A DNA stretch of 62,756 nucleotides from Pseudonocardia sp. Its GTDB lineage: Bacteria; Actinomycetota; Actinomycetes; Mycobacteriales; Pseudonocardiaceae. The notes beneath the pieces were generated by a model. It saw only the letters and a program-made list of their open reading frames with translations. It ran no database searches and was not told the origin of the DNA. This document shows, piece after piece, positions 38,536 through 61,465 of the stretch (position 1 is its first letter; the number at the start of each line of letters is the position of its first letter). The stretch spans positions 1-62,756 of the forward strand of contig JAJCYC010000081.1 of assembly GCA_029263115.1 (NCBI GenBank), read 5' to 3'. A program made the translations under genes and the position numbers.

Positions 38536-38554
38536 CTACTAAGGGGCATAGTAG
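38536..38554. promoter_or_regulatory. CTACT-N9-AGTAG palindrome before ccmA
   Basis: A perfect 5+5 inverted repeat (CTACT-AAGGGGCAT-AGTAG), 34 bp upstream of the ccmA ATG. Identical half-sites with the same spacing lie before ccdA and ctaD. It is a likely dimeric repressor site, possibly for the BlaI-type protein encoded at 60,812-61,183. Confidence 0.6.
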
Positions 38555-38588
38555 GTGGCTCAGTGTTCACCGACCGGAGACAGGACAG

Positions 38589-39314
38589 ATGCCCCAGATC
38601 GGGAAGGCCGCACCGGCTTACCGTCGCGTCGTGGCGGGGATCCTTGGCTCGCCCGGCGGGTCCGCGGAGGTGGCCCGGCTCGAGGACGTCACTGTGGCAG
38701 TGCATCGCACACCGGTCCTGCACGGACTGGACCTGCGGCTCGCCGCGGGCGAGGTCCTCGGCGTGCTGGGGGCGAACGGGTCGGGCAAGACGACGCTGCT
38801 CCAGGTGCTAGCCACGCTCGTCGCCCCCTCCGCCGGTCGCGGGCAGGTACTGGGTTCCGAACTCGGAACTCCCGGCACCGCGACCGCCCGGCGACGGATC
38901 GCGCTGGTGGGGCATGTCCCCGCGCTGTACGGGCCGCTGACGCTGGCCGAGAACCTGCGGTTCGTCGCCCGGCTCAGCGGCCGGGACGAGCAGGCCGCCA
39001 ACGGGGCGCTGGCCGCGGTGGGCCTCGGCGGCGCGGCGAGACGTCGGGCGGAGAGCTGCTCGCAGGGCATGCAGCGCCGGGCCGATCTCGCGCGGGTGCT
39101 GCTCGCCGAGCCGTCGCTGCTGCTGCTCGACGAGGTCCACGCCGGTCTCGATCGCGACGCCGTCCCGCTGGTCGACGCGGTCGTGGCCCGAGTGCGGGCT
39201 CGGGGCGGCGCGGCCGTGCTCGTCTCCCACGAGCCCGACCGCCTCGTCGGACTGGTCGACCGGCTGGTCCGTATCGTCGACGGGCGCGCTGAACCGGTGG
39301 GGGACTTCCCGTGA
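38589..39314 (+). CDS. ccmA: haem exporter ABC ATPase CcmA
   Basis: 241 residues from ATG 38,589. Walker A is GANGSGKTTLLQ, the ABC signature is degenerate as SQGMQRRADLARVLL, and Walker B is LLLLDEVHAGLD followed by SHEP. With CcmB and CcmC it forms the ABC module that releases haem-loaded CcmE. It is the first gene of a run in which nearly every stop overlaps the next start. The CTACT palindrome sits in its promoter. Confidence 0.9.
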   Translation: MPQIGKAAPAYRRVVAGILGSPGGSAEVARLEDVTVAVHRTPVLHGLDLRLAAGEVLGVLGANGSGKTTLLQVLATLVAPSAGRGQVLGSELGTPGTATARRRIALVGHVPALYGPLTLAENLRFVARLSGRDEQAANGALAAVGLGGAARRRAESCSQGMQRRADLARVLLAEPSLLLLDEVHAGLDRDAVPLVDAVVARVRARGGAAVLVSHEPDRLVGLVDRLVRIVDGRAEPVGDFP

Positions 39315-39991
39315 CGGCCGCGACGGTTTCCCCGCTCGGCCTGTGCCTGGTCCTGGCGCGTAAGGACCTGCGCCTGGAACGGCGGGCGGGCGAGGCGCTG
39401 CTGGTCACCGCGCCGTTCGGCGCGACCGCGCTGCTGCTGGCCCCGCTGGCCGTGGGGACCGACACGCCGCTGCTGCGCGAGCTCGGCCCGGCCCTGTACT
39501 GGCTGGTGGTGCTGCTGTTCGGGGTGCTCGTGACGCTGCGGGCCAGCGCCGTCGACGGGCCGGCGCAGGTCGCGATGCTGCGCCTCGCGGGGGTGGGTGC
39601 GCGGGTGCGCCTGGCCGGCCGCACGCTGGCCAACGGCGTGCTGTTGCTGGGGTTCCAGCTGCTGCTCGCGCCGGTCGCGGTGCTGCTCTACGACCCGGAC
39701 CTGACCGGCTGGCCGTGGCTGCTGCCGGTGTTCGTGCTGGTGGCCGCGGGGCTCGCGGTTCTGGGTGCGCTGGCCGACGCGCTGGCCGCCGGGCTCGCCG
39801 GTCGCACCGCGCTGGGGCCCCTGCTGGTGGCTCCGCTCGCCGTACCCCTGCTGATCGGGGCGACAGGTGTGCTGCAGGCGGCCCGCTACGGCCGCCCGCC
39901 CTGGCCGTGGTTGCTGCTCCTCGCCACCGTCGATCTCGTCGCCGCACTGCTCGCCGCGTGGTGCGCCCCCCACCTGGAGGACCGGACATGA
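39311..39991 (+). CDS. ccmB: haem exporter membrane subunit CcmB
   Basis: 226 residues, GTG 39,311 overlapping ccmA by 4 bp. Six membrane segments with the family's RKDLRLERRAGEALL opening, the FGATALLLAPLA first helix and the LGPLLVAPLAVPLLIGAT segment near the end. It is the membrane partner of CcmA. Length is normal. Its stop overlaps ccmC (ATGA). Confidence 0.9.
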   Translation: MTAATVSPLGLCLVLARKDLRLERRAGEALLVTAPFGATALLLAPLAVGTDTPLLRELGPALYWLVVLLFGVLVTLRASAVDGPAQVAMLRLAGVGARVRLAGRTLANGVLLLGFQLLLAPVAVLLYDPDLTGWPWLLPVFVLVAAGLAVLGALADALAAGLAGRTALGPLLVAPLAVPLLIGATGVLQAARYGRPPWPWLLLLATVDLVAALLAAWCAPHLEDRT

Positions 39992-40749
39992 CAGCGCCCC
40001 CCACCGCCTCGCCCGGCGCAGCATCCATCGGACCGGTGTTCGGCCGCCGGCTGCCGATCGCCGCCGGTGTTGCAGGCGTCGTCGGACTCATCGCCGCGAT
40101 GGTCTCCCCGCCCGACTTCGTGCAGGGCGAGCTCGTCCGCCTCATGTATATCCACGTGCCCGCCGCGTGGACGGCCTACCTCAGCTTCGCGGTGACACTG
40201 GGGGCGAGCATCGGCTGGTTGTGGCGCCGCCGCCCCGGCCTGGACCGGATGGCCGCGGCGAGTGCCGAGGTCGGCGTCTTCTTCACCGGGCTGGCCATCG
40301 CGCTGGGCTCGATCTGGGGGAAGCCGACCTGGGGGGTGTGGTGGACCTGGGACGCACGGCTCGTCACCACCGCGCTGCTGTTCTTCGTCTACCTCGGCTA
40401 CCTGGCGCTGCGCCGGGCCATCCCCGACCCGCTGGTCCGCGCCCGCCGCTCGGCTGTGTTCGGGGTGGCGGCCTTCGCGCAGGTGCCGCTGGTCCACTTC
40501 TCGGTCCTCTGGTGGCGCACCCTGCACCAACCACCCACGGTGCTGCGCCCCGGCGACCCGTCGATCGACCACACGATGCTCGCCGCGCTGCTGCTCAACC
40601 TGGTGGCGTTCACCCTGCTGTGGGCGCTGCTCGTCCGGGCCCGCGCCCGCATCGCCGCGGCACAGGACCGGATCGACGAGGCCGAGCCGACGCGGCCGCT
40701 CGCGGGTGACGCGGTGTCGGCGCCCCGGCTGGAGGCCTCGGATGTCTGA
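39988..40749 (+). CDS. ccmC: haem delivery protein CcmC
   Basis: 253 residues from ATG 39,988. Six helices with the tryptophan-rich WWD motif WGVWWTWDARLVTT (~115-128). Conserved His lie in IHVPAAW and VHFSVLWWRTLHQP on the outer face. It presents haem to CcmE. The tail (~220-253) is charged and unlike other families. It overlaps both neighbours. Confidence 0.92.
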   Translation: MTAPPTASPGAASIGPVFGRRLPIAAGVAGVVGLIAAMVSPPDFVQGELVRLMYIHVPAAWTAYLSFAVTLGASIGWLWRRRPGLDRMAAASAEVGVFFTGLAIALGSIWGKPTWGVWWTWDARLVTTALLFFVYLGYLALRRAIPDPLVRARRSAVFGVAAFAQVPLVHFSVLWWRTLHQPPTVLRPGDPSIDHTMLAALLLNLVAFTLLWALLVRARARIAAAQDRIDEAEPTRPLAGDAVSAPRLEASDV

Positions 40750-40858
40750 GTGGGCGTGGGTGGCGCTGGGCTACGGGACCTCGGTGGTCGCGCTGGTCGG
40801 CTACGTCGTGGTGCTGGCGCGCCGGGCGACGGCACTGCGCCGCCGGGACCCGTCGTGA
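40742..40858 (+). CDS. ccmD: CcmD, small single-helix subunit
   Basis: 38 residues: MSEWAWVALGYGTSVVAL, one helix, then a basic RRATALRRRDPS tail. It overlaps ccmC by 8 bp and ccmE by 4 bp. Size, topology and position match CcmD, which helps release haem-CcmE from the ABC complex. Confidence 0.8.
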   Translation: MSEWAWVALGYGTSVVALVGYVVVLARRATALRRRDPS

Positions 40859-41289
40859 GCAGCCCGACCCGGATGGGCCTGTCCCGCTACCGGCTGTTGG
40901 CGGTCGCCGCGGTCGGGGTGCTGGCCGTGCTGCTGGGCCTGCTGCTGTTCGGCAATCTCAACCGCAACCTCGTGTACTACCTGGACCCGGCCGAGGCGCT
41001 CGCGCAGCAGGCGGACTACGGCGACGGCCGCCGCTTCCAGCTCGGTGGCCTCGTCGAGGAGGGCAGCGTCACGACGACCGCCGACGGCGTCCGCTTCACG
41101 GTCACCTCCACCGCAGGCCCGGACGGCACGACGATCCCGGTCGAGTACCGCGGCTCTCCGGCGCAGCTCTTCGGCGCCGGCATCGGCGTCGTGCTCGAAG
41201 GCTTCTGGCGCGGGCCGGTGTTCGCCTCGGACACGATGAAGGTCAAGCACGACGAGAACTACCGGCCCCCGGAAAGCGAGTCGACGTGA
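40855..41289 (+). CDS. ccmE: haem chaperone CcmE
   Basis: 144 residues from GTG 40,855, membrane-anchored by residues ~12-34, then an OB-fold β-barrel. The haem-attaching His is His132 in KVKHDENYRPPE, and the nearby Tyr is Tyr136, as in canonical CcmE. It ferries haem from CcmC to CcmF. Overlaps the next gene by 4 bp. Confidence 0.92.
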   Translation: MSSPTRMGLSRYRLLAVAAVGVLAVLLGLLLFGNLNRNLVYYLDPAEALAQQADYGDGRRFQLGGLVEEGSVTTTADGVRFTVTSTAGPDGTTIPVEYRGSPAQLFGAGIGVVLEGFWRGPVFASDTMKVKHDENYRPPESEST

Positions 41290-43268
41290 CGACGGCGGTT
41301 CCCGCGGCGGGGTGGGCGGGCGCGTTGCTCGGCCTGGCCGGTTCGATCGTGCTCGCCGTGCTCGGGCTGCGGGCCCAGCGCCGGCCCGGCGCCGTGCGCC
41401 ACCAGCAGCTCCGCGCCGCGGTGTGGTGCATGCTCGGCGGTGCGGTGCTGGCGATGACGGCGCTGGAGGTGGCACTGCTGACCGACAACTTCGCGATGTC
41501 CTACGTCGCGGAGACGCACTCCCGCGCCACCCCGCTGCTGTTCACCATCACCAGCGCCTGGGCCGCCCTCGACGGCAGCATGGTGCTCTGGACGCTGATC
41601 CTCGCCGGGTACACCGCTGTTGTGCTGCGTCAGGTGCCCGGCACCGACGACCGGCTCGGCACCGGCGCGCTGGGGGTGCTCGGCCTGGTCGCGGCGTTCT
41701 TCTTCGGTACCGTGGTGCTGGCCGCCAACCCCTTCGAGATCCTGGCGAACCCGCCCGCCGACGGCCCGGGGCCCAACCCGATCCTGGCCGACCACATCAT
41801 GGTCGCCCTGCACCCGCCGATGCTCTACCTGGGCTATGTCGGGTTCACCGTCCCGTTCGCGTTCGCGATGTCGGCGCTGCTGCTGCGCGAGGGCGGCGTC
41901 GAGTGGCTGCGTCGTACCCGGCGGGCGAACCTGGTGGCCTGGAGCTTCTTGACCGGAGGGCTCGTGCTCGGTGCCTGGTGGGCCTACGAGGTGCTGGGCT
42001 GGGGCGGGTACTGGGCGTGGGACCCGGTGGAGAACGCCGCGCTCATCCCGTGGCTGGTGGCCACCGCGTTCATCCACTCATCGGTGGTCCAGGTCCGCCG
42101 CGGCATGCTGCAGGCGTGGAACTTCGTGCTGGTCCTGGCCACGTTCGCGCTGACCATCCTGGGCACGTTCCTCACCCGGTCCTCGGTGGTGGTGTCGGTG
42201 CACAGCTTCAGCCAGTCGCCGATCGGGCCGGCGCTGCTGGCGTTCTTCGTCCTCGTCGTCGTCGCCGGGTTCACGCTGATCGTGCTGCGCGCCGAGCGGG
42301 TCGCGTCGCTGTCGCGTCCCGAGTCGCTCGCTAGCCGGGAGGGCGCGTTCCTGGTCAACAACCTGCTGCTGAGCCTGCTCGCGTTCGTCGTGCTGCTCGG
42401 CACCACCTACCCGATCCTCGTCGAGGCCGTCGTCGGGCAGCAGGTCTCGGTCGGGCGGCCGTTCTTCGACCGGATGGCGGTGCCGCTGGGGTTCGCGCTG
42501 CTGCTCGCCATGGGGATCGGCCCGGTCACGCCCTACCGGCGGGCGAGCGGCACGCTGCTGTGGGAGCGGATGCGGGGGCCGCTGCTGGCGGCCAGCGCGG
42601 CCGCGGCGGCCGTCACGCTGGCCGGGGTGCGCTCACCCGGGGTGGTCGCCGTGGTCGGGATCGCCACTTGGATCGCCGCGTCCACGCTGCGCCAGCTCGT
42701 CGTCGGCGCGCCCGCCCGCACGCCCGCCGGGGTGCTGCGCATGGTGCGCGGGCAGCGCGGCTTCTGGGGCGGGCAGCTCGCGCACCTCGGGGTGGCGCTC
42801 GCCGCCGTGGTCATCGCGGTGTCCGGTGACCTCGCCGAACGGGCCACGGTGACCCTCGACCGCGGGCAGTCCGCCGGGTTCGCCGGCTACACCGTCACCT
42901 TCGAGCGCAGCGAGCAGCACCAGCAGCCCGACCGGCTGGTCACCGACGCGCACATCGTGCTGCGTTCGGGCACCGACGTGGTCCGGGTCGCCGAGCCGCG
43001 GCTCAACTCGTTCCCGGGCCGGCCGCAGGCGGTCGGCAACCCGTCGGTCTGGTCGGCCCTGGGCCAGGACGTCTACGTGGCGCTGGGCAGCCTCGACCCG
43101 GAGCGGGTCACGCTCAACCTGTACCGCTTCCCGCTGATGGTGTGGCTGTGGGTCGCCGGAGGGCTCGTCGCGGCGGGCGGTTTCTGGGCGCTGGGCGGAC
43201 CGCGCCGGCGCACCCCCGTCGAGACCTCCGGTGAACAGCCTCTGGAGAAGGTGGGTTCCGATGGGTGA
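41286..43268 (+). CDS. ccmF: cytochrome c haem lyase subunit CcmF
   Basis: 660 residues, about fifteen helices. The WWD motif is WGGYWAWDPVENAALIPWL (~238-256), flanked by His loops (DHIMVALHPPMLYLGY; FIHSSVVQVRRGMLQAWN). FLTRSSVVVSVHSF is the family's strongest block. A large C-terminal outer loop follows (~515-625). It ligates haem to the CxxCH Cys of apocytochrome c. GTG/ATG overlaps on both sides; intact. Confidence 0.95.
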   Translation: MTTAVPAAGWAGALLGLAGSIVLAVLGLRAQRRPGAVRHQQLRAAVWCMLGGAVLAMTALEVALLTDNFAMSYVAETHSRATPLLFTITSAWAALDGSMVLWTLILAGYTAVVLRQVPGTDDRLGTGALGVLGLVAAFFFGTVVLAANPFEILANPPADGPGPNPILADHIMVALHPPMLYLGYVGFTVPFAFAMSALLLREGGVEWLRRTRRANLVAWSFLTGGLVLGAWWAYEVLGWGGYWAWDPVENAALIPWLVATAFIHSSVVQVRRGMLQAWNFVLVLATFALTILGTFLTRSSVVVSVHSFSQSPIGPALLAFFVLVVVAGFTLIVLRAERVASLSRPESLASREGAFLVNNLLLSLLAFVVLLGTTYPILVEAVVGQQVSVGRPFFDRMAVPLGFALLLAMGIGPVTPYRRASGTLLWERMRGPLLAASAAAAAVTLAGVRSPGVVAVVGIATWIAASTLRQLVVGAPARTPAGVLRMVRGQRGFWGGQLAHLGVALAAVVIAVSGDLAERATVTLDRGQSAGFAGYTVTFERSEQHQQPDRLVTDAHIVLRSGTDVVRVAEPRLNSFPGRPQAVGNPSVWSALGQDVYVALGSLDPERVTLNLYRFPLMVWLWVAGGLVAAGGFWALGGPRRRTPVETSGEQPLEKVGSDG

Positions 43269-43755
43269 GCGCCGCCGAACCGCCTCCGTCGTCATCGCGC
43301 TCGCCGTCCTCGGCCTGCTCGCGGTCACGGTTGTGGCGCTGCTGACCGCGACCCGGCCGGCCCCCGACCGCGCCCAGGACCTCGCCGAGCGGCTGCGCTG
43401 CCCGGTGTGCAAGAGCGTGTCCATCGCGGAGTCACAGTCCGACACCGCGGTCGCGATGCGCGGGGTCGTCGCCGAACAGGTCGCGGCCGGGCGCAGCGAC
43501 CCGGAGATCGTCGACTACTTCCGGGCCCGCTACGGCGACTGGGTGCTGTTCGACCCGCCCGCCGCCGGGGCCACCCTCGCGTTGTGGCTGGTACCGGCGG
43601 CGGTGACCGTGCTCGGGACCGGCGTGGTGCTGCACCGGATGCGGCAGGGGCCGGCTGGGTCCCCACCCGCGTTGAGCGCGGAGGAGCGGGAGCGTGTCGC
43701 GGCCGCGGTCGCCCGGGCCCGCGTGGCCGGAGTCGGGGAGGACGACCAACCGTGA
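43261..43755 (+). CDS. ccmH: cytochrome c maturation thiol protein CcmH
   Basis: 164 residues from ATG 43,261, overlapping ccmF by 8 bp. A signal anchor (~8-30) precedes LRCPVC (Cys47, Cys50), which reduces the haem-binding Cys of apocytochrome. A second helix (~105-125) anchors it, and an acidic tail follows. Length matches CcmH/CycL. Confidence 0.92.
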   Translation: MGERRRTASVVIALAVLGLLAVTVVALLTATRPAPDRAQDLAERLRCPVCKSVSIAESQSDTAVAMRGVVAEQVAAGRSDPEIVDYFRARYGDWVLFDPPAAGATLALWLVPAAVTVLGTGVVLHRMRQGPAGSPPALSAEERERVAAAVARARVAGVGEDDQP

Positions 43756-44537
43756 GCATTCCTGACGAGCGGCTGCGCCAGGTGGCCGACCAGGCGGTGC
43801 GCGACATCGTCGAACTGGACCGGCAGGTCGACTGCGGGGAGATCGATGCAGCCGACGCCGGACCGCTGCGTGCCGGATACGAAGCCCGCGCCGCGCAGTC
43901 CCTCGGGGCGCTGGGTACGGCCGATCCGCCTGCCCCCGCGCGACCTCCCGCCCCGCGCGCGTGGTCGCTGGCCTACCTGCTGGCCGGCGTCGTCGCGGTG
44001 GTGGCCACGCTGGTCCTGCTACCGGCCTCGCTGATCGACCGGCCGGTCGGCGGGTTCGTCACCGGGAATGAGGCGGTTCAGGGTGCCGCTCCGGCGCTGG
44101 ACCCGTCGGCAACCGTCACCGATGCGCAGCTGGAAGAGGTGGTGGCGGCCAACCCCGGCGTCGTCGGGATGCGGCTGGCCCTGGCCGACCGCTACGTGGC
44201 GCAGGGTGATTTCGGCCCCGCGATGCGCCACTACCTCGACGCGCTGCGCCGGGAGCCGGGCAACGCCGAGGCGCACGCCCACCTCGGGTGGCTGCTGCTG
44301 CAGATCGGCCGACCACAGGACGGGCTGGAGTCGGTGGACCGGGCGCTCGCCCTGGACCCATCGCTCGACGACGCGCTGTGGTTCCGGGCGAACATCGCCC
44401 TCGACGGGCTCGACGACCCCTCCTCCGCGCTGGTGTCGCTGCAGGAGCTGGGCGGGCGCGAGCTGGCCCCGGCGGTCCGCGCGCAGGTCGAGGGGCTCGC
44501 CGCGACCGCGCAGCAGCGACTCGGGAGCGCCGGATGA
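43752..44537 (+). CDS. CcmI/CycH-like TPR protein
   Basis: 261 residues from GTG 43,752. A helical N-terminus (~1-60), one membrane helix (WSLAYLLAGVVAVVATLVLLP, ~75-95) and TPR repeats outside (MRLALADRYVAQGDFGPAMRHYLDALRREP; AHAHLGWLLLQIGRPQDGLESVDRALALDP). CcmI-type TPR domains hold the apocytochrome C-terminus for CcmF/H. Its place between ccmH and a ccmG-like gene fits. Confidence 0.8.
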   Translation: MSIPDERLRQVADQAVRDIVELDRQVDCGEIDAADAGPLRAGYEARAAQSLGALGTADPPAPARPPAPRAWSLAYLLAGVVAVVATLVLLPASLIDRPVGGFVTGNEAVQGAAPALDPSATVTDAQLEEVVAANPGVVGMRLALADRYVAQGDFGPAMRHYLDALRREPGNAEAHAHLGWLLLQIGRPQDGLESVDRALALDPSLDDALWFRANIALDGLDDPSSALVSLQELGGRELAPAVRAQVEGLAATAQQRLGSAG

Positions 44538-45175
44538 GCGACACCCTGACCCCGGTGCCGTCGCGGCGCCGGGTGCTGCGCGCCGTCGCGGTCGCCGTGG
44601 TGCTCGTCGCCATCGGGATCGGCGCGCTGTTCGGGTCGCGGCTCACCGTCGACCCGACGCTGGTGCAGAGCCCGCTGATCGGCCGCCCGGTCCCCGACCT
44701 CACCCTGCCGGCGCTGGAGGGTCCCGGGGAGGTCTCGCTGGCCGCGCTGCGCGGGCAGGTCGTGGTGGTCAACTTCTGGGCGTCGTGGTGCGTCGCGTGC
44801 CGCGAGGAGCACGCCGCGCTCGTGGCCGCGGCCGACCAGTACCAAGACGCCGGCCTCACCATCGTCGGCATCGACTACCAGGACGGCACGTCCTCCGCGG
44901 TCGACTTCCTCGACGAGCTCGGGCGCGGAGGGGACAACTACCTGTACGTCAGCGATGTGGGCTCCCGGGCCGCGCTGGAGTTCGGCCTGTTCGGGGTGCC
45001 CGAGACGTTCGTCGTCGATCGCGCGGGCACCATCGTCGCCAAGATCACCGGCGGGACGACCTACCCGCTGCTGGCCGGGACATTGGACGCCGTGATCGCC
45101 GGGGAGCAACCCGGGGCGCGGACAGGGGGCCCGGTCCAGCCCGCGCCCGGTGCACCCCTCGTGGGAGGACGATGA
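44534..45175 (+). CDS. ccmG: thiol-disulfide oxidoreductase, CcmG/ResA type
   Basis: 213 residues from ATG 44,534. A membrane anchor (~14-36) and a thioredoxin domain with WCVAC (Cys86, Cys89), the Glu-rich EEH after it, and the cis-Pro in GVPETFVVD. CcmG reduces CcmH or the apocytochrome directly, taking electrons from CcdA (55,136). The tail is Gly/Pro-rich. Overlaps both neighbours by 4 bp. Confidence 0.88.
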   Translation: MSDTLTPVPSRRRVLRAVAVAVVLVAIGIGALFGSRLTVDPTLVQSPLIGRPVPDLTLPALEGPGEVSLAALRGQVVVVNFWASWCVACREEHAALVAAADQYQDAGLTIVGIDYQDGTSSAVDFLDELGRGGDNYLYVSDVGSRAALEFGLFGVPETFVVDRAGTIVAKITGGTTYPLLAGTLDAVIAGEQPGARTGGPVQPAPGAPLVGGR

Positions 45176-45861
45176 TGCGCACGCTGCTCCGCTCGGCCGA
45201 GTTCCGCTCGACGATCGTGGTGATGCTGCTCGCCGTCGCCGGCGTGGTGGCGCTGTGGCCCCGCGGCTCGGCGCCCGCCGTGCAGCCGGGACAACCGGCC
45301 GCCGCCGTCGCCCCGTGGGACGTGGACGGGCCCGGGTCGATGGCCGCGCCGGTCGGACCGGAGGTGGACATGCTGCGGGCATCGGCCGCGCTGGACCCCT
45401 GCCCGGCCCCGCAGCCGGACGCCCCGCAGCCCAGCGGGCCACTCCGCGGTATCACGGTGCCGTGCCTCGGTGCCCCGGGCGAGGTCGACCGCGCCGCGAC
45501 ACTGGCCGGTCGACCGGCCCTGCTCAACGTGTGGGCCTCGTGGTGCGCCCCGTGTCGCGCGGAGATCCCGGTGCTCGACGAGTACGCCGGCCGGCCCGAC
45601 GCGATACCCGTGATCGGCATCGACGTGCGCGACGACGCCGCGGCGGCGCTGCGCCTGATGGCCGATCTGGGCGCACGCTATCCATCGGTCGTCGACACCC
45701 GCGGCGAGCTGTGGCGGGCACTCGAGGTGCCGCTCGTCATCCCGACCACCTATGTCATCGCGGCGGACGGATCGCTGCAGCGGGTGAATCCGCCCACCGT
45801 CTTCGCCGATCCCGACGAGGTGGCGGCCACGGTGCAGCGCTACCTGTCCGACCCGTCGTGA
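45172..45861 (+). CDS. second TlpA/ResA-family thioredoxin
   Basis: 229 residues; ATG 45,172 or 45,175 after GGGAGG. Membrane anchor (~11-30), a linker with an extra CPAP (~76) and VPCLG, then a thioredoxin domain with WCAPC (Cys125, Cys128) and cis-Pro in LVIPTTYVI. It differs from the upstream copy and may serve as a CuA/Sco-like reductant or a second Ccm reductant. It ends the operon. Confidence 0.85.
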   Translation: MMRTLLRSAEFRSTIVVMLLAVAGVVALWPRGSAPAVQPGQPAAAVAPWDVDGPGSMAAPVGPEVDMLRASAALDPCPAPQPDAPQPSGPLRGITVPCLGAPGEVDRAATLAGRPALLNVWASWCAPCRAEIPVLDEYAGRPDAIPVIGIDVRDDAAAALRLMADLGARYPSVVDTRGELWRALEVPLVIPTTYVIAADGSLQRVNPPTVFADPDEVAATVQRYLSDPS

Positions 45862-45898
45862 ACGGGTGGATCGCAACGGGTTGCGGACGATCCGGTGC

Positions 45899-53989: not shown

Positions 53990-53993
53990 GTGC

Positions 53994-55073
53994 TCACGAC
54001 CCCGCGCCACGGTCGGGGATCCAGCCGACGACCACCCCGAGCGCCGCGGCAACCAAAGCAGACAGGCCGACGACCCCGGACCAGAGCTCGACCGGCCAGC
54101 GCACCCCTTCGGTGATCGCCAGGGCGACGAGCTGAGCGGGCCACAGCAGCAGCGGCACCGTGGCCGCCAGCGCCGGCAGCAGCAACGTCTGGGGCAGGCG
54201 AGAACGCTCGACGCCGGCCATGGCCACCTCGACCCCGACCGCGGCGACGGTGACCGCAGCGGCCACCGCCACGCCGTACGTGCTGAAGCCACCCACCGCG
54301 ACCGACAGCCAGGCCACGACCCCGACCGTTAGCACGACCGCCCCGTGAGGGCGCCGACCGATTCGCTGGGCAAGCAGCAGGGGGGCGACAAGCAGCACGG
54401 TGGTCACCAGGTAGCCGGCCAGCCCGGCGACGGCGGACAGCTCAGCCGCCTCATGCCCGGGCGCGCCCTCCGGGATGCGGGTCACCTCCTGAGCAGCCGC
54501 TGGCCCAGTGAACACCGAGACGTAGAGCAGGAAGAACGCGCCCAGCGCGGCGACCAGGGTCAGCGACAGCATCGCCGGCAGCTCGGTGGACACGCCCGGG
54601 CCACCCTCGGCGACCGGCCGCGCCCAGTCGGCCCTCAGTGCCGCGGTCAGGGCCAGCGCCCCGCCGGTCAGCAGCACCAGGTGCGTGGGGCTGACCAGGG
54701 CGTCGATTCCGGTCTCCACCCCGAACACGACGTGCCACACCATGTCGCCCACCCCGCCCAGCCCGAACAGCAGCACGCCGAGCGCGGCGACCGGATAGCC
54801 GACCGGGAGCGCCCTGCTCCATGGCAGGCCTAGCCGGCGACCCCGCAGGGCGAGGACCCCGAGCCACACCGCGCCTGCGGCGAACCCGCTGTAGAGGACC
54901 CCGTGCCACGGGGTGAAGAACGTCTCCAAGCCGGGAAGATTCAGGTGGGCCCAGCCATCGACGAACAGTCCGAGGATCAACCAGATGTCGAATGCAGTGG
55001 TGGCCAGGTCGTCGCGGGTGGACGTGGTCAGGCGCTCAGGCCGCTCTATCGTTGCTTCCAGGGCGGTCGTCAT
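53994..55073 (-). CDS. nine-to-ten-helix membrane protein, first gene of CsoR-box operon
   Basis: 359 residues from ATG 55,073 with GGAG six bases upstream. Helices carry FVDGWAHLNLPGLETFFTPWHG, GDMVWHVVFGVETGIDALVSPTHL and other His/Trp pairs, suggesting a metal- or haem-binding membrane protein. The Asp/His patterns recall proteins seen beside multicopper oxidases in actinobacteria, without an assigned function. The upstream CsoR-like box makes copper control likely. Confidence 0.7.
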   Translation of the reverse strand: MTTALEATIERPERLTTSTRDDLATTAFDIWLILGLFVDGWAHLNLPGLETFFTPWHGVLYSGFAAGAVWLGVLALRGRRLGLPWSRALPVGYPVAALGVLLFGLGGVGDMVWHVVFGVETGIDALVSPTHLVLLTGGALALTAALRADWARPVAEGGPGVSTELPAMLSLTLVAALGAFFLLYVSVFTGPAAAQEVTRIPEGAPGHEAAELSAVAGLAGYLVTTVLLVAPLLLAQRIGRRPHGAVVLTVGVVAWLSVAVGGFSTYGVAVAAAVTVAAVGVEVAMAGVERSRLPQTLLLPALAATVPLLLWPAQLVALAITEGVRWPVELWSGVVGLSALVAAALGVVVGWIPDRGAGS

Positions 55074-55084
55074 GATCCGCTCCA

Positions 55085-55101
55085 ATACCTAGGGGGGGTA
55101 C
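55085..55101. promoter_or_regulatory. CsoR-like box before the multicopper oxidase operon
   Basis: ATACCTAGGGGGGGTAC, the same layout as the box before csoR (outer ATAC/GTA, central TAG and G-run). It lies 12 bp upstream of the first start codon of the operon 55,073-50,121. Confidence 0.7.
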
Positions 55102-55135
55102 TTGTGCGTCCGGTCGTCGCACCCTGTCAAGCGGT

Positions 55136-55870
55136 TCAGATCGGCGGCCACCCGATCCGGGCGTAGAGCGCGAGCAGCGAGCTCATCAGCACCGTCCAGC
55201 CGCCGGTCATCATCAGCACCCCGGTGGCGACCATGGCGATCCCCCCGCCGACCTCGATGCGGCGGGCGTGTCTGCGCAGCACGCCGAACCGGTCACGGCC
55301 GCGGACCATCCCGGCGGCGAGGACGAGGAACGGCACGCCCAGGCCGACCGCGTAGGCCGCCAGCAGCAGGGCGCCCCGAGCGGGGTCGGCCGAGCTCGCG
55401 GCCATCGTGAGTATCGACGCCAGTACCGGACCGACGCACGGCGTCCAGCCGAATGCGAACGCTGCCCCCAGGGGGAAGGCGCTGGCGGGCCCGGCCCCGA
55501 TCCGCGCGAGCGGAAGGCGGGCCTCGCGCTGGAGCGCCGGCACCCGGAGCGCCCCCGCCATCGTCAGGCCCAGCACGACGACCACCGCGCCGCCCACCCG
55601 GGTGACGGTGTCGGTGTTCTGGCGCAGCGCCAGGCCGATGGCCGACGCCGTGGCTCCGAGCGCGGTGAACACAGCGGTGAACCCGGCCACGAACAGCAGC
55701 GCCCCAACCTGTACCCGCCTTCGGCCTGCGGCATCGCCGCCCTTCTCGACCGGACCGGACAGTCCGGACACGTACGACACATAGCCGGGCAGCAGGGGAA
55801 GCACGCAGGGCGAGCTGAACGACACGGCGCCCGCAACCATCGCGAGCGATATCAGGGCGAACTGCTCCAT
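55136..55870 (-). CDS. ccdA: CcdA/DsbD-type thiol electron transporter
   Basis: 244 residues, six helices. ATG 55,870 has GGAGG eight bases upstream. Cys in SFSSPCVLPLLPGY (helix 1) and GWTPCVGPVLAS (helix 4) are the membrane Cys pair that carries electrons from cytoplasmic thioredoxin to CcmG and other exported thiols. Frame intact. A CTACT palindrome lies 24 bp upstream, the same as before ccmA, so the two should be co-regulated. Confidence 0.92.
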   Translation of the reverse strand: MEQFALISLAMVAGAVSFSSPCVLPLLPGYVSYVSGLSGPVEKGGDAAGRRRVQVGALLFVAGFTAVFTALGATASAIGLALRQNTDTVTRVGGAVVVVLGLTMAGALRVPALQREARLPLARIGAGPASAFPLGAAFAFGWTPCVGPVLASILTMAASSADPARGALLLAAYAVGLGVPFLVLAAGMVRGRDRFGVLRRHARRIEVGGGIAMVATGVLMMTGGWTVLMSSLLALYARIGWPPI

Positions 55871-55893
55871 CGGGAGTGCCTCCGTCCACCAAC

Positions 55894-55912
55894 CTACTGC
55901 GACCGATAGTAG
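55894..55912. promoter_or_regulatory. CTACT-N9-AGTAG palindrome before ccdA
   Basis: CTACT-GCGACCGAT-AGTAG, perfect half-sites, 24 bp upstream of the ccdA start. Confidence 0.6.
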
Positions 55913-56051
55913 ATCAGTCGGCGAGGTGGGTCTGTGGCACACCCGGTCCGCATCGGCAGCATTCGACGCGAGCCCGTGCGGGGCTGTGTAGCGGCTCGGT
56001 CGAACGCCCACCACCCGGGCGCTGACCCGGTGTGGTGCTCCGATCTAGCGT

Positions 56052-56475
56052 TCACCCCGGCCTCGCTGCCGGCTCCGGCCACGTGGTCCGGGAAGTCCCA
56101 AGTTGTTCGATCACGAGGCGATGCCGATCGGGGTCGGTAGCCTCGAACTCTCCCACCGAACCGGCCGGCCGGATCAACGGACCGACGCACACGCCGTCCG
56201 CGGCCAGCCTTCGGTGCGTGGCCCGGACGTCGCTGGTGGGTAGCCGCACCGGCGGCGCGGGCGAAAACGTGGCCGTTGTCCGCCGGCGGGGTGTGTTCCA
56301 GTACCAGTTCGACACGACCGCAGCGCAGGAGCACCCACCCGTCGTCGGCTTCGCGTACCTCACCGTTCAGTCCGAGGTAGAAGTCCAGCGAACGGCGCAT
56401 GTCCGTGACGCGGAGCTGCGGCCGGTCGGCGCAGGAGTTCGAGTCGCTGACGTTCCTCGGGGCGGGTGTCGACAT
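56052..56475 (-). CDS. VOC/glyoxalase-family protein, one frameshift
   Basis: About 140 residues. ATG 56,475 has GGAGG five bases upstream; the N-terminal half reads LRVTDMRRSLDFYLGLNG and GWVLLRCGRVELVLEHTP. From about 56,270 the second half is in the next frame (RATHRRLAADGVCVGPL, then GEFEATDPDRHRLVIEQ), the usual C-terminal βαβββ module with the metal Glu. VOC proteins act on small molecules through a metal or bind antibiotics. One indel splits it. Confidence 0.7.
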
Positions 56476-56616
56476 GGTCGGTAACCTCCGCTGTCCCGTC
56501 GCTGGTTCGTGCGGGTTCTTCGGGTGGAACGGCAGGGCGGTTTCCGCCGGAACCCGGCGCCCGTGGCACCCGCGTCGACGCAGGGAGCGCAAGGGTAGGG
56601 GAGCACGCTCCGGGAT

Positions 56617-56635
56617 CTACTACCCCCGTACGTAG
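56617..56635. promoter_or_regulatory. near-match CTACT-N9-CGTAG palindrome
   Basis: CTACT-ACCCCCGTA-CGTAG; read as CTAC-N11-GTAG it is perfect and has the same spacing as the other sites. It lies between the divergent VOC gene and the L,D-transpeptidase gene (80 bp before its ATG). Confidence 0.45.
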
Positions 56636-56714
56636 CCAATGTGGTGACGTTCGGTAGCGTCTTGTCACGCCCCGCATTCGCGCTGGGCGCCACTTCTCGC
56701 GAACCTGGGGACTC

Positions 56715-57203
56715 ATGGAAATGCGCGGACATGTCACGACCGGCCGGATGAGACGGGTCGCGCAGTGCGTCGCGGCCACCGCGGTGGCCGGCGCCGCAGC
56801 ACTGCTCGTCAGCGGTCCCGCGACGGCGGCGCCCAGCCCGGCGATCGTGCCCGGCACTCCGTGCACGACCACCGCGCGCGCGTGTGTGGACCTCGCCGCG
56901 GCCACCGCGTGGCTGATCGCCGACGGCGTGGTGAGCTACGGGCCAGTGCCGATCGCCTCCGGCGCACCCGGAGCGGAGACGCCGAAGGGTGCGACGGTGG
57001 TGGACTGGAAGAGCCGTTACCACCACAGCCGGGAGTTCGGCGGGGTGGCCATGCACTACGCCGTGTTCTTCGCCCCCGGCGGGATCGCGTTCCACGAGGG
57101 ACCGATCGACCACCCGTCGGCCGGCTGTGTCCGACTGGAGACCGAGGCCGCCTCACGGTTCTTCGACACCCTGGCCGTCGGCGACGAAGTCCAGGTCCGC
57201 TGA
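56715..57203 (+). CDS. L,D-transpeptidase (YkuD fold), exported
   Basis: 162 residues. A signal peptide (RVAQCVAATAVAGAAALLVSG, then ATAAPS) precedes a short catalytic domain with AMHYAVFFAPGGIAFHEG and HPSAGCVRL; the Cys of SAGC is the nucleophile and the His lies two turns before. It makes or trims 3-3 cross-links in peptidoglycan. The domain is smaller than mycobacterial Ldt proteins and has no Ig-like modules. A BlaI-type control site upstream would fit a cell-wall enzyme. Confidence 0.85.
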   Translation: MEMRGHVTTGRMRRVAQCVAATAVAGAAALLVSGPATAAPSPAIVPGTPCTTTARACVDLAAATAWLIADGVVSYGPVPIASGAPGAETPKGATVVDWKSRYHHSREFGGVAMHYAVFFAPGGIAFHEGPIDHPSAGCVRLETEAASRFFDTLAVGDEVQVR

Positions 57204-57279
57204 CAAGAACGGTGTGCCGCCTTCGTGAGGTGACTGCGACATCTTGGCAACTGCAGACCCCTGGCTGCACACTGATGCC

Positions 57280-58428
57280 ATGACCGCCGAGATGTCCCTG
57301 GCCGGACCGTCAGCGATGCAAGGCTGGAGCGGGCGCGACCGCCTCGCGATCCTCGGGATGGCGGCGTTCGTCCTCCTGCTCAACGTGGTCGGGTGGGGTG
57401 TTCTCGTCCTCGCCGTGGCCCCGCAGAACCTGGTTCTCGGCAACGCGGGCGTGTTCGGTGTCGGTCTGGGCGTCACGGCCTTCCTGCTCGGGGTGCGGCA
57501 CGCCTTCGACGCCGACCACATCGCTGCGGTCGACAACACCACACGCAAGCTCGTCGGGGAGGGCCGAGCGGCTCTGGGCTGCGGCTTCTGGTTCTCGCTC
57601 GGGCACTCCAGCGTGGTATTCGGGCTGTCGCTGCTGCTGGCGCTGGGTGTCCGAGCGCTCGCCGGTCCCGTGGCCGACGAGAACTCCCCGCTCCAGCAGA
57701 CCCTCGGGCTGGTCGGGACCATCGTCGCCGGGGTGTTCCTCATCCTCATCGGGCTGATGAACCTGGTCGCGGTGGTCGGCATCGGCCGGGTCTTCCGGGA
57801 CATGCGCCACGGAGGGCTGGACGAGGCCGAGCTCGAACGCCGCCTCAACAGCCGCGGCTTCCTTGCCCGCCTTCTCAGTCGGGTGATGAGGCGGGTCAGC
57901 AAGCCGTGGCACATGTATCCAGTCGGGCTGCTCATGGGGCTCGGGTTCGACACCGCGACCCAGGTGGCGCTGTTGGTGCTTGCCGCGGGCACGGCCGCGT
58001 TCACGCTGCCCTGGTATGCGATCCTGGTCCTGCCGGTGCTCTTCGCCGCAGGCATGAGCATCTTCGACACCGCCGACGGGGTCTTCATGGCCCGGGCGTA
58101 CGGCTGGGCGTTCCTCAAGCCGGTGCGCAAGGTGTTCTACAACCTCACGGTCACCGTGCTCTCGGTGGTGGTGGCGCTGGTCGTCGGTGTGATCGTGCTG
58201 GTGGGACTGCTCGTCGAGAAGCTGGTTGTGGAGACCGGGCCGCTGGCCGGGCTCGGTGGCCTCGAACTGGACCTGGTCGGCTACATCGTCGTCGGGCTGT
58301 TCGTCGCGACCTGGCTCATCGCGGTCGCGGTGTGGAAGTTCGGGCGGGTCGAAGAGCGGTGGTCGTCCGCCCCGCCGATCACCGGCGCAGCGGACGTACC
58401 AACGTCAACCGGCACGACGAAGATCTGA
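57280..58428 (+). CDS. nickel/cobalt transporter, NiCoT (HoxN/NixA) family
   Basis: 382 residues, eight helices, ATG 57,280. The signature H-x4-D-H is RHAFDADHIAAVDN (His74, Asp79, His80); further blocks are GFWFSLGHSSVVF, LGFDTATQVALL and AAGMSIFDTADGVFM. It imports Ni2+ and/or Co2+ at high affinity by a secondary mechanism. It converges on the remnant cbtA, 12 bp away. It may have replaced the CbtAB system as the cobalt source. Confidence 0.92.
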   Translation: MTAEMSLAGPSAMQGWSGRDRLAILGMAAFVLLLNVVGWGVLVLAVAPQNLVLGNAGVFGVGLGVTAFLLGVRHAFDADHIAAVDNTTRKLVGEGRAALGCGFWFSLGHSSVVFGLSLLLALGVRALAGPVADENSPLQQTLGLVGTIVAGVFLILIGLMNLVAVVGIGRVFRDMRHGGLDEAELERRLNSRGFLARLLSRVMRRVSKPWHMYPVGLLMGLGFDTATQVALLVLAAGTAAFTLPWYAILVLPVLFAAGMSIFDTADGVFMARAYGWAFLKPVRKVFYNLTVTVLSVVVALVVGVIVLVGLLVEKLVVETGPLAGLGGLELDLVGYIVVGLFVATWLIAVAVWKFGRVEERWSSAPPITGAADVPTSTGTTKI

Positions 58429-58440
58429 CCGGCGGTTGGA

Positions 58441-58812
58441 CTACGGGTTCGCCACAGCGCGAGCCGAGTTCTCGGTCGCCCGCTGCAGAGACGAAGCCGG
58501 TCGCAGCGATCGCCGCCGCGGTCGACCGCGGCCCGAGCCGTCCGACCCGTCCGACGCATAGGCCAGTCCGACCACCCCGCCGATCGCCACGCCGTAGATC
58601 ATCGCGGCGACCCCCAGGCCCAGAGTGCTCTGAATCCCCCTACTGACGAGCGGTGCCTCGGCTGATACGTCACCAGCGGCGGCGGCGGTTTGCTCCTCGT
58701 AGGCGATGGCGGCCTCGACAGCGTCCTCCCCGAACAGGTAGGCGAACACGAAATACGCCAACCCGCCGACGAGCCCGGCAGCCAGACCACGGACCAGTAG
58801 TTTCCTCACCAC
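58441..58812 (-). pseudogene. cbtA: CbtA cobalt transporter subunit, truncated
   Basis: From GTG 58,812 (VVRKLLVRGLAAGLVGGLAYFVFAYLFGEDAVEAAI) the first two to three helices of CbtA are clear, with GVAIGGVVGLAYA. After that the frame is Arg/Ser-rich; a different frame gives AIAATGFVSAA, the next CbtA block, and then the sequence stops matching. About 100 C-terminal residues, including the usual PFLKYP block, are missing. The gene ends against the NiCoT gene. CbtA normally forms the channel with CbtB. Confidence 0.65.
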
Positions 58813-58828
58813 GGCCGACGCCCCGCGG

Positions 58829-59038
58829 TCAGTGGCACGGGAACCCGAGGAGGTGGCGGCCGTCATGGACGAACTCGTGCACCATGCTGCCCGTGATCAG
58901 CGACGTGGCGCCCTGGTCCATCCCTACCAGGTAAAGCAAGGACAGCAGGATGAACCCGGCGAAGACTGCCCAGGGCAGGACCTCGTCGAGCGGGACGACG
59001 GCCGGAGCAGGAGCGGAAAGCGTTGCGGCCTGAGCCAT
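58829..59038 (-). CDS. cbtB: CbtB, cobalt-linked small membrane protein
   Basis: 69 residues from ATG 59,038 with GGAG upstream (the longer frame to 59,086 is rejected). One helix (VLPWAVFAGFILLSLLYLVG) and a His-rich exported tail: HEFVHDGRHLLGFPCH, the family's metal-binding end. It is the first gene after the TGAACA palindrome, and cbtA follows it. Confidence 0.88.
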   Translation of the reverse strand: MAQAATLSAPAPAVVPLDEVLPWAVFAGFILLSLLYLVGMDQGATSLITGSMVHEFVHDGRHLLGFPCH

Positions 59039-59087
59039 GATCGGATCTCCTCGGCTCAGTGATGACGTCTGCAGCGTCTGACACATA

Positions 59088-59101
59088 TGAACAACTGTTC
59101 A
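59088..59101. promoter_or_regulatory. TGAACA-AC-TGTTCA palindrome before cbtB
   Basis: A perfect 6-2-6 inverted repeat 50 bp upstream of cbtB and 69 bp upstream of the phosphatase gene. TGAACA/TGTTCA half-sites are typical of ArsR/SmtB metal sensors. No such regulator is encoded in the window. Confidence 0.6.
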
Positions 59102-59169
59102 AGTGGAAGAGTGTGGAGGCCGGGGCGCGACCAGGTCAAGCGCCGCCCGAGTGTCTGTGAGGAGGATCG

Positions 59170-59787
59170 ATGAGCAGCAGGATCACGCTGGTGTCCCATG
59201 CGCCCACGTTGGCCACGAACTCGGCGGCGTTCGCTGACGACGAGCCACTCGATGCCCGCGGAGCCAGCCAGGCCGCGGCCGCGCGCGGTCGCCTGCTGCG
59301 GGCCGTCCGGGTCCTCTGCTCGTCGGCGCCGCCCTGCCGGCAGACCGCGGAGGCGTTGGCGCTGGATGCCGTGGTCGATCCGGTGCTGGCCGAATGGAAT
59401 CTCGGGCGATGGCGGGGTCGGACCCTCGACGAGGTCGCCGCGGTTGAGCGGGACGCCGTGGCGGCCTGGCTGTCGGATCCGGCGGCGGCGCCGCACGGAG
59501 GCGAGTCACAGGTCGCGCTGCTGGCCCGGATCGCCGCGTGGCTCGACTCCGTGCCTCGTGACGGTCATACCGTCGCGATCACGCACGCCGCCGTCGTCCG
59601 AGCGGCCGTGCTCGCCGTCCTCCACGCGGCACCTGCCGGCTTCTGGCGCGTCGACATCGCCCCACTGACGGCCACCGAGTTCCGCGGAGGACCGGGCCGA
59701 TGGACGATGCGGTCCACCGGCACGCGCCTCGTCCCGACCGGCGGCGAAGGCGATGGCGAACACCGGCTCCCGACCCGGCGGTCGTGA
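59170..59787 (+). CDS. histidine phosphatase-family protein (CobC-like context)
   Basis: 205 residues from ATG 59,170 with GAGGAG upstream. The active-site start reads LVSHAPTLAT, where RHG is usual: His is kept and Arg replaced by Ser, as in a subset near cobalt genes. CSSAPPCRQTAEAL and the second His in VAITHAAVVRAAV follow; EWNLGRWRGRTLDEV is the phosphatase-like middle. Neighbouring cbtB suggests α-ribazole phosphatase or a cobalt-related role. The replaced Arg lowers certainty about activity. Confidence 0.78.
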   Translation: MSSRITLVSHAPTLATNSAAFADDEPLDARGASQAAAARGRLLRAVRVLCSSAPPCRQTAEALALDAVVDPVLAEWNLGRWRGRTLDEVAAVERDAVAAWLSDPAAAPHGGESQVALLARIAAWLDSVPRDGHTVAITHAAVVRAAVLAVLHAAPAGFWRVDIAPLTATEFRGGPGRWTMRSTGTRLVPTGGEGDGEHRLPTRRS

Positions 59788-59849
59788 GGCCCGATCGAAC
59801 TGCATGCGTGCCTCCGCAATCGGCGGCGCCCGAAGCACTCTTGCCTGGT

Positions 59850-60815
59850 TCAGACCGACAGGAGCAGACCCGCGCACCAGGCGATGCCGGACGTCGCCGA
59901 TGTCGCAGCCAGGACCGGGGTGGCAAGAAGTACGCTGATGAGAAGAGCGGAGGCGGCCCACGCGGAGCGAACCTGGATGACCGACGCACGGCCGAGCAGC
60001 CGACCGGCGCGCTCAGTGACCCCGGATGCCGCAGCCGCGAGTGCCCGTTGTGGTGGCGTGGGCGGGCCTGCAAGCGCGAGCAGTGCGGTGACCAGCGTTC
60101 GGGCGTCGTGCCGACGTGCGGCGTTGTCGTCGGCCCACATCTCGACCAGGCGACCGAGCGCCGTCGGACCCGCGGTGAACAGGGGCAGTGGCGGCATCGC
60201 CTTCGCCAGGGCCTGTGCGAATCCCAGGATCAGATGGTGGCGGCCCGAGAGGTGGGCGTGCTCGTGGGCGAGCACCGCGCGCAACTCGAGGTCGGTCAAC
60301 GCGGCGAGCGCGGGCTCGCTCACGACGATCGCGGACGGACGACCGGCCACCGAGTAGACGATCTTGTCCGGAACATCGACGACCACGATCCCCAGCCGCC
60401 GGTCGAGTCGCCCCACGAGACGCGCAGCGCACGCGTGTGCCAGTGTTCGGCGCCGGCTCCGCCACAGCGCTGCGCCACCGCGAACACCGATCACCGCCAC
60501 ACCGGCACTGGCGGACGCGAACACGACCAGGACGCCCCAGCGGGCCGGCGTCCCGTGCGCGCCGAGCGCGGCCGCGCAAACCGCGCTGATGCACCGCTGA
60601 GCGACGTGTCGGACGACATCTGAGCCGATCACGGCGCGACTGAAGAGGACGACCGCGCCCACCCACGAGCCGGTAGCGCTGGCCAGAGCGCACAACCACA
60701 GCACGACCCCCGACCGGGGTGCTGCATTTGCGCCGCGCGTTACGCGGAAGATGACCCGTGGGGCGAGCACGGCGACGACCAATCCGTAGATGGCCAGGCA
60801 CAGCGCCTCGCTCAT
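59850..60815 (-). CDS. M56-family membrane metalloprotease (BlaR1-like, without sensor domain)
   Basis: 321 residues. Three to four helices and a zinc-protease core: [15 protein letters not shown] (HExxH) and [13 protein letters not shown] with the third ligand Glu. ATG 60,815 overlaps the BlaI-type gene by 4 bp. There is no C-terminal penicillin-binding domain, as in mycobacterial Rv1845c. Such proteases probably cleave or control the partner repressor after a membrane signal. Confidence 0.88.
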
Positions 60816-61183
60816 GGCTCACGCCCCTCGGAGTGTCGCTGCAACAGCTCCTGCAGCTGCTCCGCATCTTCGACGCTCATCCGCTCGACGAAGCGGCTCA
60901 GGATCGCGATGGAGTCGCCCCCGTCGACCAACGCCTCGCGCATCACCTCAGCGCTGTACTCGGCGCGGGTCGCGGTGGGGTAGTAGCGGTGAGCCTTGCC
61001 TTCCGGTTGCCGGGTCAGTCGCCCCTTGCGGTAGAGGTTGTGGATCGTGCTCATGACCGTCGTGTAGGCGATGGTACGGCCGGTGCGCAGTCGCTCGAAC
61101 ACCTCACGGACCGTCGCCCCGTCGGGGGCGGTCCACAGTTCTTGCATGATCGCGCTCTCAAGCTCGCCGAACCCGCGCACCAT
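60812..61183 (-). CDS. blaI: BlaI/MecI/CopY-family repressor
   Basis: 123 residues; ATG at about 61,183 or the GTG one codon later, after GGGGAGG. The winged helix reads [46 protein letters not shown] and [14 protein letters not shown], typical of BlaI. A C-terminal dimerisation helix follows ([14 protein letters not shown]). It is divergent from ctaD across the region that holds CTACT/GTAG palindromes. Known BlaI proteins bind TAC/GTA-rich dyads. Confidence 0.9.
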
Positions 61184-61465
61184 GCCTCCCCAACCCGCCG
61201 AGGATCGAGCATAGGGGACCTTCTGCTGCAGTCCGCGGACACTCACGCCCAACGGGTTCAGGTAGAGGCCCCGAGGTCATCGCGAGGTCGCGTCTGCGCC
61301 CGAATCCGCGGCGCCCGGGCCGGCGCCTCGCCGCGACTGCCTCGCTCGGCCAACCACTGCTCATGGCCCCGTAGCGGCTCTACGGTGCGTAGAGCTACTA
61401 TTCGGCCCAGTAGATTCGTTGAGATGTCGGGAAGCAGCACGCCCGGCTCGTGGCTGGAGGCCCCT
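61184..61465. promoter_or_regulatory. shared blaI-ctaD promoter region with CTAC/GTAG palindromes
   Basis: About 280 bp. Two palindromes lie almost end to end: CTCTAC-GGTGC-GTAGAG (61,377-61,393) and CTACT-ATTCGGCCC-AGTAG (61,395-61,413), about 52 bp before the ctaD GTG. No further copy lies nearer blaI. The longer site matches those at ccmA and ccdA; the shorter matches copD-ctaG. Confidence 0.6.

Follow-up and report, generated by a model that had tools for sequence, protein, structure and literature searches.

The closest described relatives of the system reported here pair a BlaI-family repressor with an M56-family membrane protease. In Staphylococcus aureus, the cited passages describe BlaR1 as a protein of Nout-Cout topology, in which the first extracellular loop (EL1), between transmembrane helices TM2 and TM3, contacts the sensor domain following the last helix, and which cleaves BlaI at Asn101-Phe102 (PMC9834060). 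The same passages mention a Mycobacterium tuberculosis BlaR1 homologue without sensor domain, for which PknB is suggested as a substitute, and describe signal reception by such sensor-less M56 proteins as unclear. M. tuberculosis BlaI is reported, in the parts of the literature cited, to regulate the ATP synthase operon (PMC5874750, PMC7924339, PMC12565901). Here we describe a BlaI-M56 pair encoded on contig JAJCYC010000081.1 of a Pseudonocardia sp., whose 62,756 nucleotides are called the window throughout, together with an inverted repeat lying before its genes for cytochrome c maturation (ccmA), thiol transport (ccdA) and the aa3 oxidase (ctaD). Proximity, co-occurrence and sites in blaI promoters support, indirectly, that this shared putative operator is tied to BlaI-M56 pairs.

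A candidate operator and its placement

The sequence-only reading of the window had placed perfect CTACT-N9-AGTAG dyads before ccmA, ccdA and ctaD, and exactly three perfect copies are present there, at 38536, 55894 and 61395. Two further sites, at 56617 and 1847, have one mismatch each. Strands are left unassigned, and scores are those of a position weight matrix (PWM).

38536..38554, no strand: candidate operator CTACTAAGGGGCATAGTAG, a perfect 6+6 dyad 35 bp before the predicted ccmA start
55894..55912, no strand: candidate operator CTACTGCGACCGATAGTAG, 24 bp before the predicted ccdA start
61395..61413, no strand: candidate operator CTACTATTCGGCCCAGTAG, between divergent blaI and ctaD, 212 bp upstream of blaI and 56 bp upstream of the predicted ctaD start
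1847..1865, no strand: variant operator CTACTATGCCGCGTAGAAG, 162 bp before lnt, PWM score 18.8
56617..56635, no strand: doubtful operator CTACTACCCCCGTACGTAG, 112 bp before the L,D-transpeptidase gene, PWM score 9.8

That three promoter copies would be improbable by chance, as had been claimed, is borne out by simulation: none of 150 Markov-simulated windows contains a perfect dyad, and the looser CTAC-N11-GTAG, found four times in the window, reaches a mean of 0.09 and a maximum of 1 in the same set. With a tolerance of up to two mismatches, the window has 13 matches; 100 shuffled versions have 3.31 on average and always fewer than 13. All three perfect sites are at most 100 bp upstream of a predicted gene start, a zone that makes up only 9.7% of the window. 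Directly abutting the ctaD operator, at 61378-61394, is a second perfect inverted repeat, CTCTACG-GTG-CGTAGAG.

These dyads belong to a wider candidate operator, approximately CTACTA-N7-TAGTAG with a TAC-N11-GTA core, which is present in 34 of 150 genomes of the same bacterial family, own genome included. In the window and 60 further loci, where about 82% of the sequence is predicted coding, all 102 such sites are intergenic; the reversed pattern occurs there twice in all, once inside a gene. Most of these loci were fetched for a site or a blaI gene and near-identical contexts were counted once, while genes were taken from our own caller, with margins of 40 bp for open reading frames (ORFs) and 15 bp for tblastn matches. 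The scatter inside genes that had been named as the outcome contradicting an operator is thus absent from these loci, which are fetched regions and not a whole annotated genome. The sites behave as operators are expected to, being intergenic, close before gene starts and recurrent before orthologs, even if, for some, our gene prediction places no named start at 400 bp or less. Across the 5.1 Mb and 377 contigs of the own genome, seven copies of TACTA-N7-TAGTA stand against two of the reversed pattern. Four of the seven surround another blaI-M56 pair on contig C83; the other three lie before ccmA, between a rhodanese and a multicopper oxidase gene on C346, and on C24.

Orthologs of the putative target genes were scored with a PWM trained on 99 sites, the window sites being held out and many of the orthologous sites scored being part of the training set. 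A site was called at a score of 12 or more, the maximum being 6.1 in 54 control upstream regions and 11.8 in the reversed window; the near-identical genome pairs G084/G106 and G090/G128 are each counted twice. The ctaD copies beside copper or blaI genes all have a site (5/5, scores 22-27, 25-91 bp upstream): two in G041 and one each in G084, G106 and G127, the last counted as an island copy by a csoR-like neighbour only. Three of them (one of G041, those of G084 and G106) had been fetched after a perfect site had shown there, the second G041 copy and that of G127 had not. None of 29 other ctaD loci returned by the ctaD search, which are not all its matches, reaches 12 (best 2.9), and among them the copies of the same-genus genomes G122 and G004 score below 0. 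Three of the four close ccmA orthologs with upstream sequence (G041, G090, G128) score 21-22 at 63-88 bp upstream, the fourth (G037) having a best score of 10.7. For ccdA of the window's type, a site is found in 3/4 close orthologs, and in G041, G090 and G128 one site is common to a divergent ccmA/ccdA pair.

The weaker site claimed before lnt gains from the same analysis: in addition to its score, it recurs at -184 to -200 before lnt of the window's type in four of five other loci, lnt of the C346 type having none (0/4). An asymmetric form, CTACTA-N7-TAGAAG, precedes lnt both in the window and in contig C329, as well as an ArsR/P-type-ATPase-like gene pair on C230. On C230 we also noted (L032:4675 and 14755) an asymmetric CTACTATGC-N3-GTAGAAG before this pair and before a 595-aa protein. 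As for the near match before the L,D-transpeptidase gene, its single mismatch stands, whereas its score remains below the best chance match of the reversed window. Its ending, CGTACGTAG, is shared by the dyads that precede blaI in four loci (L147, L148, L151, L236), and close forms in L146 and L150 bring this variant to 6/18 other blaI genes listed; the 56617 site may be a real operator, a doubtful one. The blaI genes of those four loci are of the window's or C230 class, and the CGTACGTAG-ending dyads perhaps form a separate operator class.

Sites also precede genes of other functions: multicopper oxidase (11/18), ccdA of the c230 type (6/12), csoR (4/13), DUF305 (3/16) and a small membrane protein with CPVC in its C83 copy (11/12). 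No upstream site was found for YkuD (0/4), M23 (0/1), NicO (0/4) or CcmG-like thioredoxin (0/5) genes, and a plasmid M23 gene has one site at +210. The labels CsoR, CopZ, CopA, DUF305, Lgt, ArsR and c230 thioredoxin were assigned by eye.

The candidate operator extends to plasmids. Relatives of the C83 BlaI are present in 103 plasmid records, with Rhodococcus, Streptomyces, Gordonia and Mycolicibacterium in the lead. In four annotated plasmid regions, all 16 TACTA-N7-TAGTA sites, located in the three regions from Mycolicibacterium, Rhodococcus and Tsukamurella, lie outside annotated genes (the gene table being incomplete) and in the neighbourhood of NlpC/P60, M23, rhodanese, Lgt-type, TlpA and blaI genes; one of three matches to the weaker TACT-N9-AGTA is inside ripA. 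Multicopper oxidase genes are present in three of the four regions, and TlpA- or DsbA-type and lnt or lgt genes are among the neighbours. On the Rhodococcus plasmid pRB29, some 1.8 kb separate a blaI-M56 pair from a lone gene (L236:28264-28557) annotated as NADH-quinone oxidoreductase subunit A. A scan of the phylum revealed scattered sites in 27 of 396 genomes, and the distant family f26 (genomes of about 2 Mb) has one or two CTACTA-N7-TAGTAG, often CTACTAT..GTAGTAG, in several genera.

BlaI-M56 pairs and a conserved cysteine pair

The window genes concerned are the following.

38589..45175, + strand: System I cytochrome c maturation cluster (ccmA, ccmB, ccmC, ccmE, ccmF, 43261 ORF, TPR-like ORF, thioredoxin-like gene)
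55136..55870, - strand: CcdA/DsbD-TM thiol transporter (PF02683, 5.1e-18)
59850..60815, - strand: M56/BlaR1-type membrane metalloprotease, 321 aa, with HEHAH, Cys75 and Cys314
60812..61183, - strand: BlaI-family repressor, 123 aa (PF03965, 2.1e-22)
61469..62756, + strand: ctaD, aa3 oxidase subunit I (PF00115, 3.1e-147), 429 aa present, cut by the contig end
317..1684, - strand: lnt, apolipoprotein N-acyltransferase-like (PF00795, CN_hydrolase)
56748..57203, + strand: L,D-transpeptidase (YkuD, PF03734)

A BlaI-family repressor and an M56 protease had been predicted beside ctaD. The first is clear from its PF03965 match, and the second carries HEHAH, though Pfam assigns it to M48 and not M56; for the C83 protease, the M56 match is below cut-off. 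Within the ccm cluster, ccmA matches TIGR01189 and both ccmF and the thioredoxin-like gene have Pfam matches; TPR matches of the 43752 ORF are weak, below cut-off, and ccmB, ccmC and ccmE are presumed names, given from position. The lnt name comes from a weak similarity (33-35%) of such proteins to an annotated plasmid lnt. The NF050116 match of ctaD is below cut-off because the gene, likely starting with GTG at 61469, is truncated.

The association between sites and blaI is strong. Of 75 listed sites, 36 have a blaI gene at 2 kb or less, where 0.14 would be expected, and 65 have one at 20 kb or less, where the expectation is 1.28; ten are within 250 bp, 17-225 bp before the gene and all on its promoter side. 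This count covers 31 genomes among those listed, a fuller table summing to 79 sites and 34 genomes, and any blaI genes missing from the listing would lengthen the distances. Moreover, BlaI of the C83 type, taken as a best E of 1.1e-32 or lower (49 genomes, counted by eye), is found in 30/34 genomes with CTACTA-N7-TAGTAG against 19/116 without (Fisher p 1.4e-14, a test that ignores relatedness and includes the own genome).

The window BlaI matches PF03965 over residues 6-115 with 80.1 bits (cut-off 22.6), that is, as a full-length Penicillinase_R domain. Its closest solved structure by sequence is PDB 2g9w (4.1e-18, ‘conserved hypothetical protein’), which we take to be M. tuberculosis BlaI (Rv1846c). 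Phe98, which aligns to the Phe of the MecI cleavage region, is kept in 52/52 island BlaI and in 17/17 others. In the presumed recognition helix, island BlaI have Asp48 (46/52) and Asn49 (40/52), the window protein having His48-Asn49, whereas the other BlaI of the same bacterial family have Arg49 in 17/17. Three of these 17 other-type blaI genes (L250, L254 and L255, in G042, G118 and G075) are preceded by twin TACGAC-N5-GTAGTA operators at -89 and -70.

The 321-aa window protease ends a few residues after TM4, with its HEXXH domain between TM3 and TM4 according to hydropathy and to a structural model, and it has no penicillin-sensor domain of the BlaR1 kind. Two cysteine columns, Cys75 in EL1 (TM2-TM3) and Cys314 just after TM4, are occupied in 48/48 island-type M56 and in 0/17 others. 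These 65 aligned proteins comprise, for the island type, those that match one of three island references best, with more than 75% of the length aligned, including an L152 protein that looks frameshifted near its end, and, for the others, the C17 protein plus 16 picked from weaker BlaI matches. Shorter M56 matches were left out, Micrococcales L066 and L067 included, the L066 protein ending without Cys; six of the 16 picked proteins have a Cys within their last 25 residues, in a different column. Both cysteines probably face outward, as judged by hydropathy and by a basic stretch following TM3, which is what a cytosolic protease domain would lead one to expect. In the AF2 model (mean pLDDT 80.9, nine sequences) Cys75 is borne by helix 66-87. 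The first-ranked PDB fold match is BlaR1 (probability 0.99, E 0.064), consistent but weak, no match reaching E 0.001.

A proposed switch and its competitors

We consider it reasonably probable that the sites are BlaI operators, that the M56 cysteine pair reads copper or thiol state and that BlaI cleavage frees the operators together. Dimeric BlaI-family repressors, encoded with M56 membrane proteases, would hold down ccm, ccdA, ctaD and lnt, together with the multicopper oxidase, csoR, ccdA-type and blaI genes of sister islands. The M56 partner would be a BlaR1-like Nout-Cout protease without penicillin-binding sensor, this sensor being replaced by the invariant EL1 Cys and by a second invariant Cys that closely follows the final TM helix, on the outer side of the membrane. 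A copper or thiol/disulfide change outside the membrane would act at this pair; the cytosolic HEXXH domain would then be released and would cut BlaI at the conserved Phe98. Gene islands and plasmids would in this way carry one programme that coordinates copper detoxification with the cytochromes and the oxidase. That such proteases form a new class of BlaR1-like receptor, in which an extracytoplasmic Cys pair replaces the beta-lactam sensor and switches a horizontally spread regulon including ccm and ctaD, is a more tentative proposal, to which we give slightly less than even weight.

Several observations weigh against this scheme. Copper as the signal would be deduced from gene content only; CopA is never directly preceded by a site (0/8) and csoR in only 4/13, and residues 312-321 of the AF2 model are unreliable, giving no usable Cys-Cys distance. 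The BlaI that acts on the window sites may be another than the window's own, because the own genome encodes four BlaI and the cleanest palindromes surround the C83 gene and not that of the window. Of the 49 genomes with C83-type BlaI, 19 have no perfect site, and no site was seen in 32 kb of a Pseudonocardia autotrophica plasmid region with such a BlaI. Distant relatives included, blaI itself is preceded by a site in 21/43 cases for the C83 type, 3/17 for the window's type and 3/20 for the C230 type; none was found at the C230 and C17 blaI loci of the own genome. In L064 and L065, the loci of the two closest relatives of the window BlaI, the 260 bp upstream of blaI contain no TAC-N11-GTA dyad, although in L064 the run of genes that includes blaI is headed by a variant site. 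Finally, of the genome-wide scan proposed in the sequence-only reading, the part that held is the excess of TACTA-N7-TAGTA given above; forms of the CTACT-N9-AGTAG type show no excess over the reversed pattern in the own genome (the dyad itself counts 7 against 13, a looser version 10 against 46 and the two-mismatch search 23 against 400), and in a family scan of the 6+6 form the reversed pattern was commoner in most genomes. Because only TACTA-N7-TAGTA exceeds its reversed pattern, our argument is not the number of dyads but their placement and conservation.

BlaI could read the same operators while M56 senses envelope or beta-lactam/peptidoglycan damage, the copper genes being co-travellers. 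The L,D-transpeptidase, M23 and NlpC/P60 peptidoglycan enzymes and lnt found on islands and plasmids would fit this, as would the sensor-less M. tuberculosis BlaR1 homologue, for which the cited passages suggest PknB as substitute (PMC9834060). Yet the proteases have no penicillin-binding domain, their invariant cysteines are absent from 17/17 other M56, and sites precede multicopper oxidase (11/18) and c230-type ccdA (6/12) genes rather than YkuD (0/4) or M23 (0/1), so that we hold this explanation to be unlikely.

We give still less credit to the dyads being operators of another regulator on the same islands, such as an unlinked TetR or MarR. It would account for the 7/75 listed sites, those of C346 and C24 included, without a listed blaI on their contig; however, C24 and C346 are short contigs, ten sites directly precede blaI, and the co-occurrence p value, relatedness ignored, points to BlaI. 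The TAC/GTA dyad is also a BlaI-like geometry.

The sequence-only reading had proposed a repressor-protease switch for building the respiratory chain. The shared sites and their tie to BlaI-M56 stand, as does the reappearance of the ctaD, ccmA/ccdA and lnt sites in other genera; that the switch chiefly serves the respiratory chain does not, copper, thiol and envelope genes being covered as well. A BlaI mainly timing cytochrome c maturation and aa3 oxidase building would be consistent with the recurrent ccmA, ccdA and ctaD sites, with complex I genes on the adjoining contig C329 and with the reported action of M. tuberculosis BlaI on the ATP synthase operon, as far as the cited passages go (PMC5874750, PMC7924339, PMC12565901). 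But on other islands most of the sites stand before genes for copper or thiol functions, genes without a name, or blaI, and 20 kb of C329 (L203) holding nuo genes contain no site scoring 12 or more, which makes this account improbable. ‘Respiratory switch’ is too narrow because multicopper oxidase, CcdA and blaI genes also have sites; judged from sequence, the regulon seems to combine extracytoplasmic copper, thiol-redox and envelope functions with ccm and ctaD.

C329 takes up where the window ends, ctaD continuing into it with an end overlap of about 124 bases. It carries lnt, DUF305-like and complex I genes (L203:10963-16049), NuoM and NuoN being above and NuoL and NuoK below NCBIfam cut-offs. 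The window ctaD is 96% identical to the single match in G122, and its flanks, downstream included, are unlike those common to G122 and G004. Only one ctaD is assembled; a second, unassembled copy may exist because a piece of the gene following ctaD in G122 and G004 breaks off at the contig end of C354. A sole, relocated ctaD was rejected on this ground, despite the single assembled copy and the different flank.

If the proposed copper/thiol switch is correct, copper stress, thiol chemistry and aerobic respiration would come under one control. The invariant cysteines supply two candidate residues for how a sensor-less M56 receives its signal, and the operator would let the regulon be read from sequence across actinobacteria and plasmids.

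Comparison with known BlaI systems

BlaI-M56 switches are already known; the operator, the regulon and the cysteine pair appear to be new, and no report of any of the three was found in the open-access literature searched.

CopY and TcrY belong to the same superfamily and also have copper gene targets. They carry a cysteine hook, whereas the window BlaI has no cysteine with which to bind Cu(I) in the CopY manner. Direct copper sensing of this type was discarded for the window protein, which scores 27.3 bits against a TIGR02698 cut-off of 121.95, and sensing by BlaI itself is unlikely for island proteins since 47/52 of them are also without Cys.

M. tuberculosis BlaI and its M56 partner resemble the window pair in being actinobacterial, with a sensor-less protease and, from the passages cited, a multi-gene regulon. 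Those passages describe no copper or cytochrome c regulon for M. tuberculosis BlaI.

The 17 other BlaI-M56 pairs compared within the same bacterial family share fold family, HEXXH and the Phe98 position with the island pairs. They differ by Arg49, by having neither protease Cys and, in three cases, by the twin TACGAC-N5-GTAGTA operator.

With BlaI-BlaR1 and MecI-MecR1 of S. aureus, the window system shares a small winged-helix repressor, an M56 protease with HEXXH and the Phe of the cleavage region. The S. aureus BlaI/MecI operators are TAC/GTA dyads. The window-type system differs by the core sequence of its operator and by its many targets instead of one divergon. It has no penicillin sensor and carries instead two probably outward cysteines; as these lie where BlaR1 has its EL1 loop and sensor, we read the island pairs as putative copper/thiol-sensing BlaR1-like switches.

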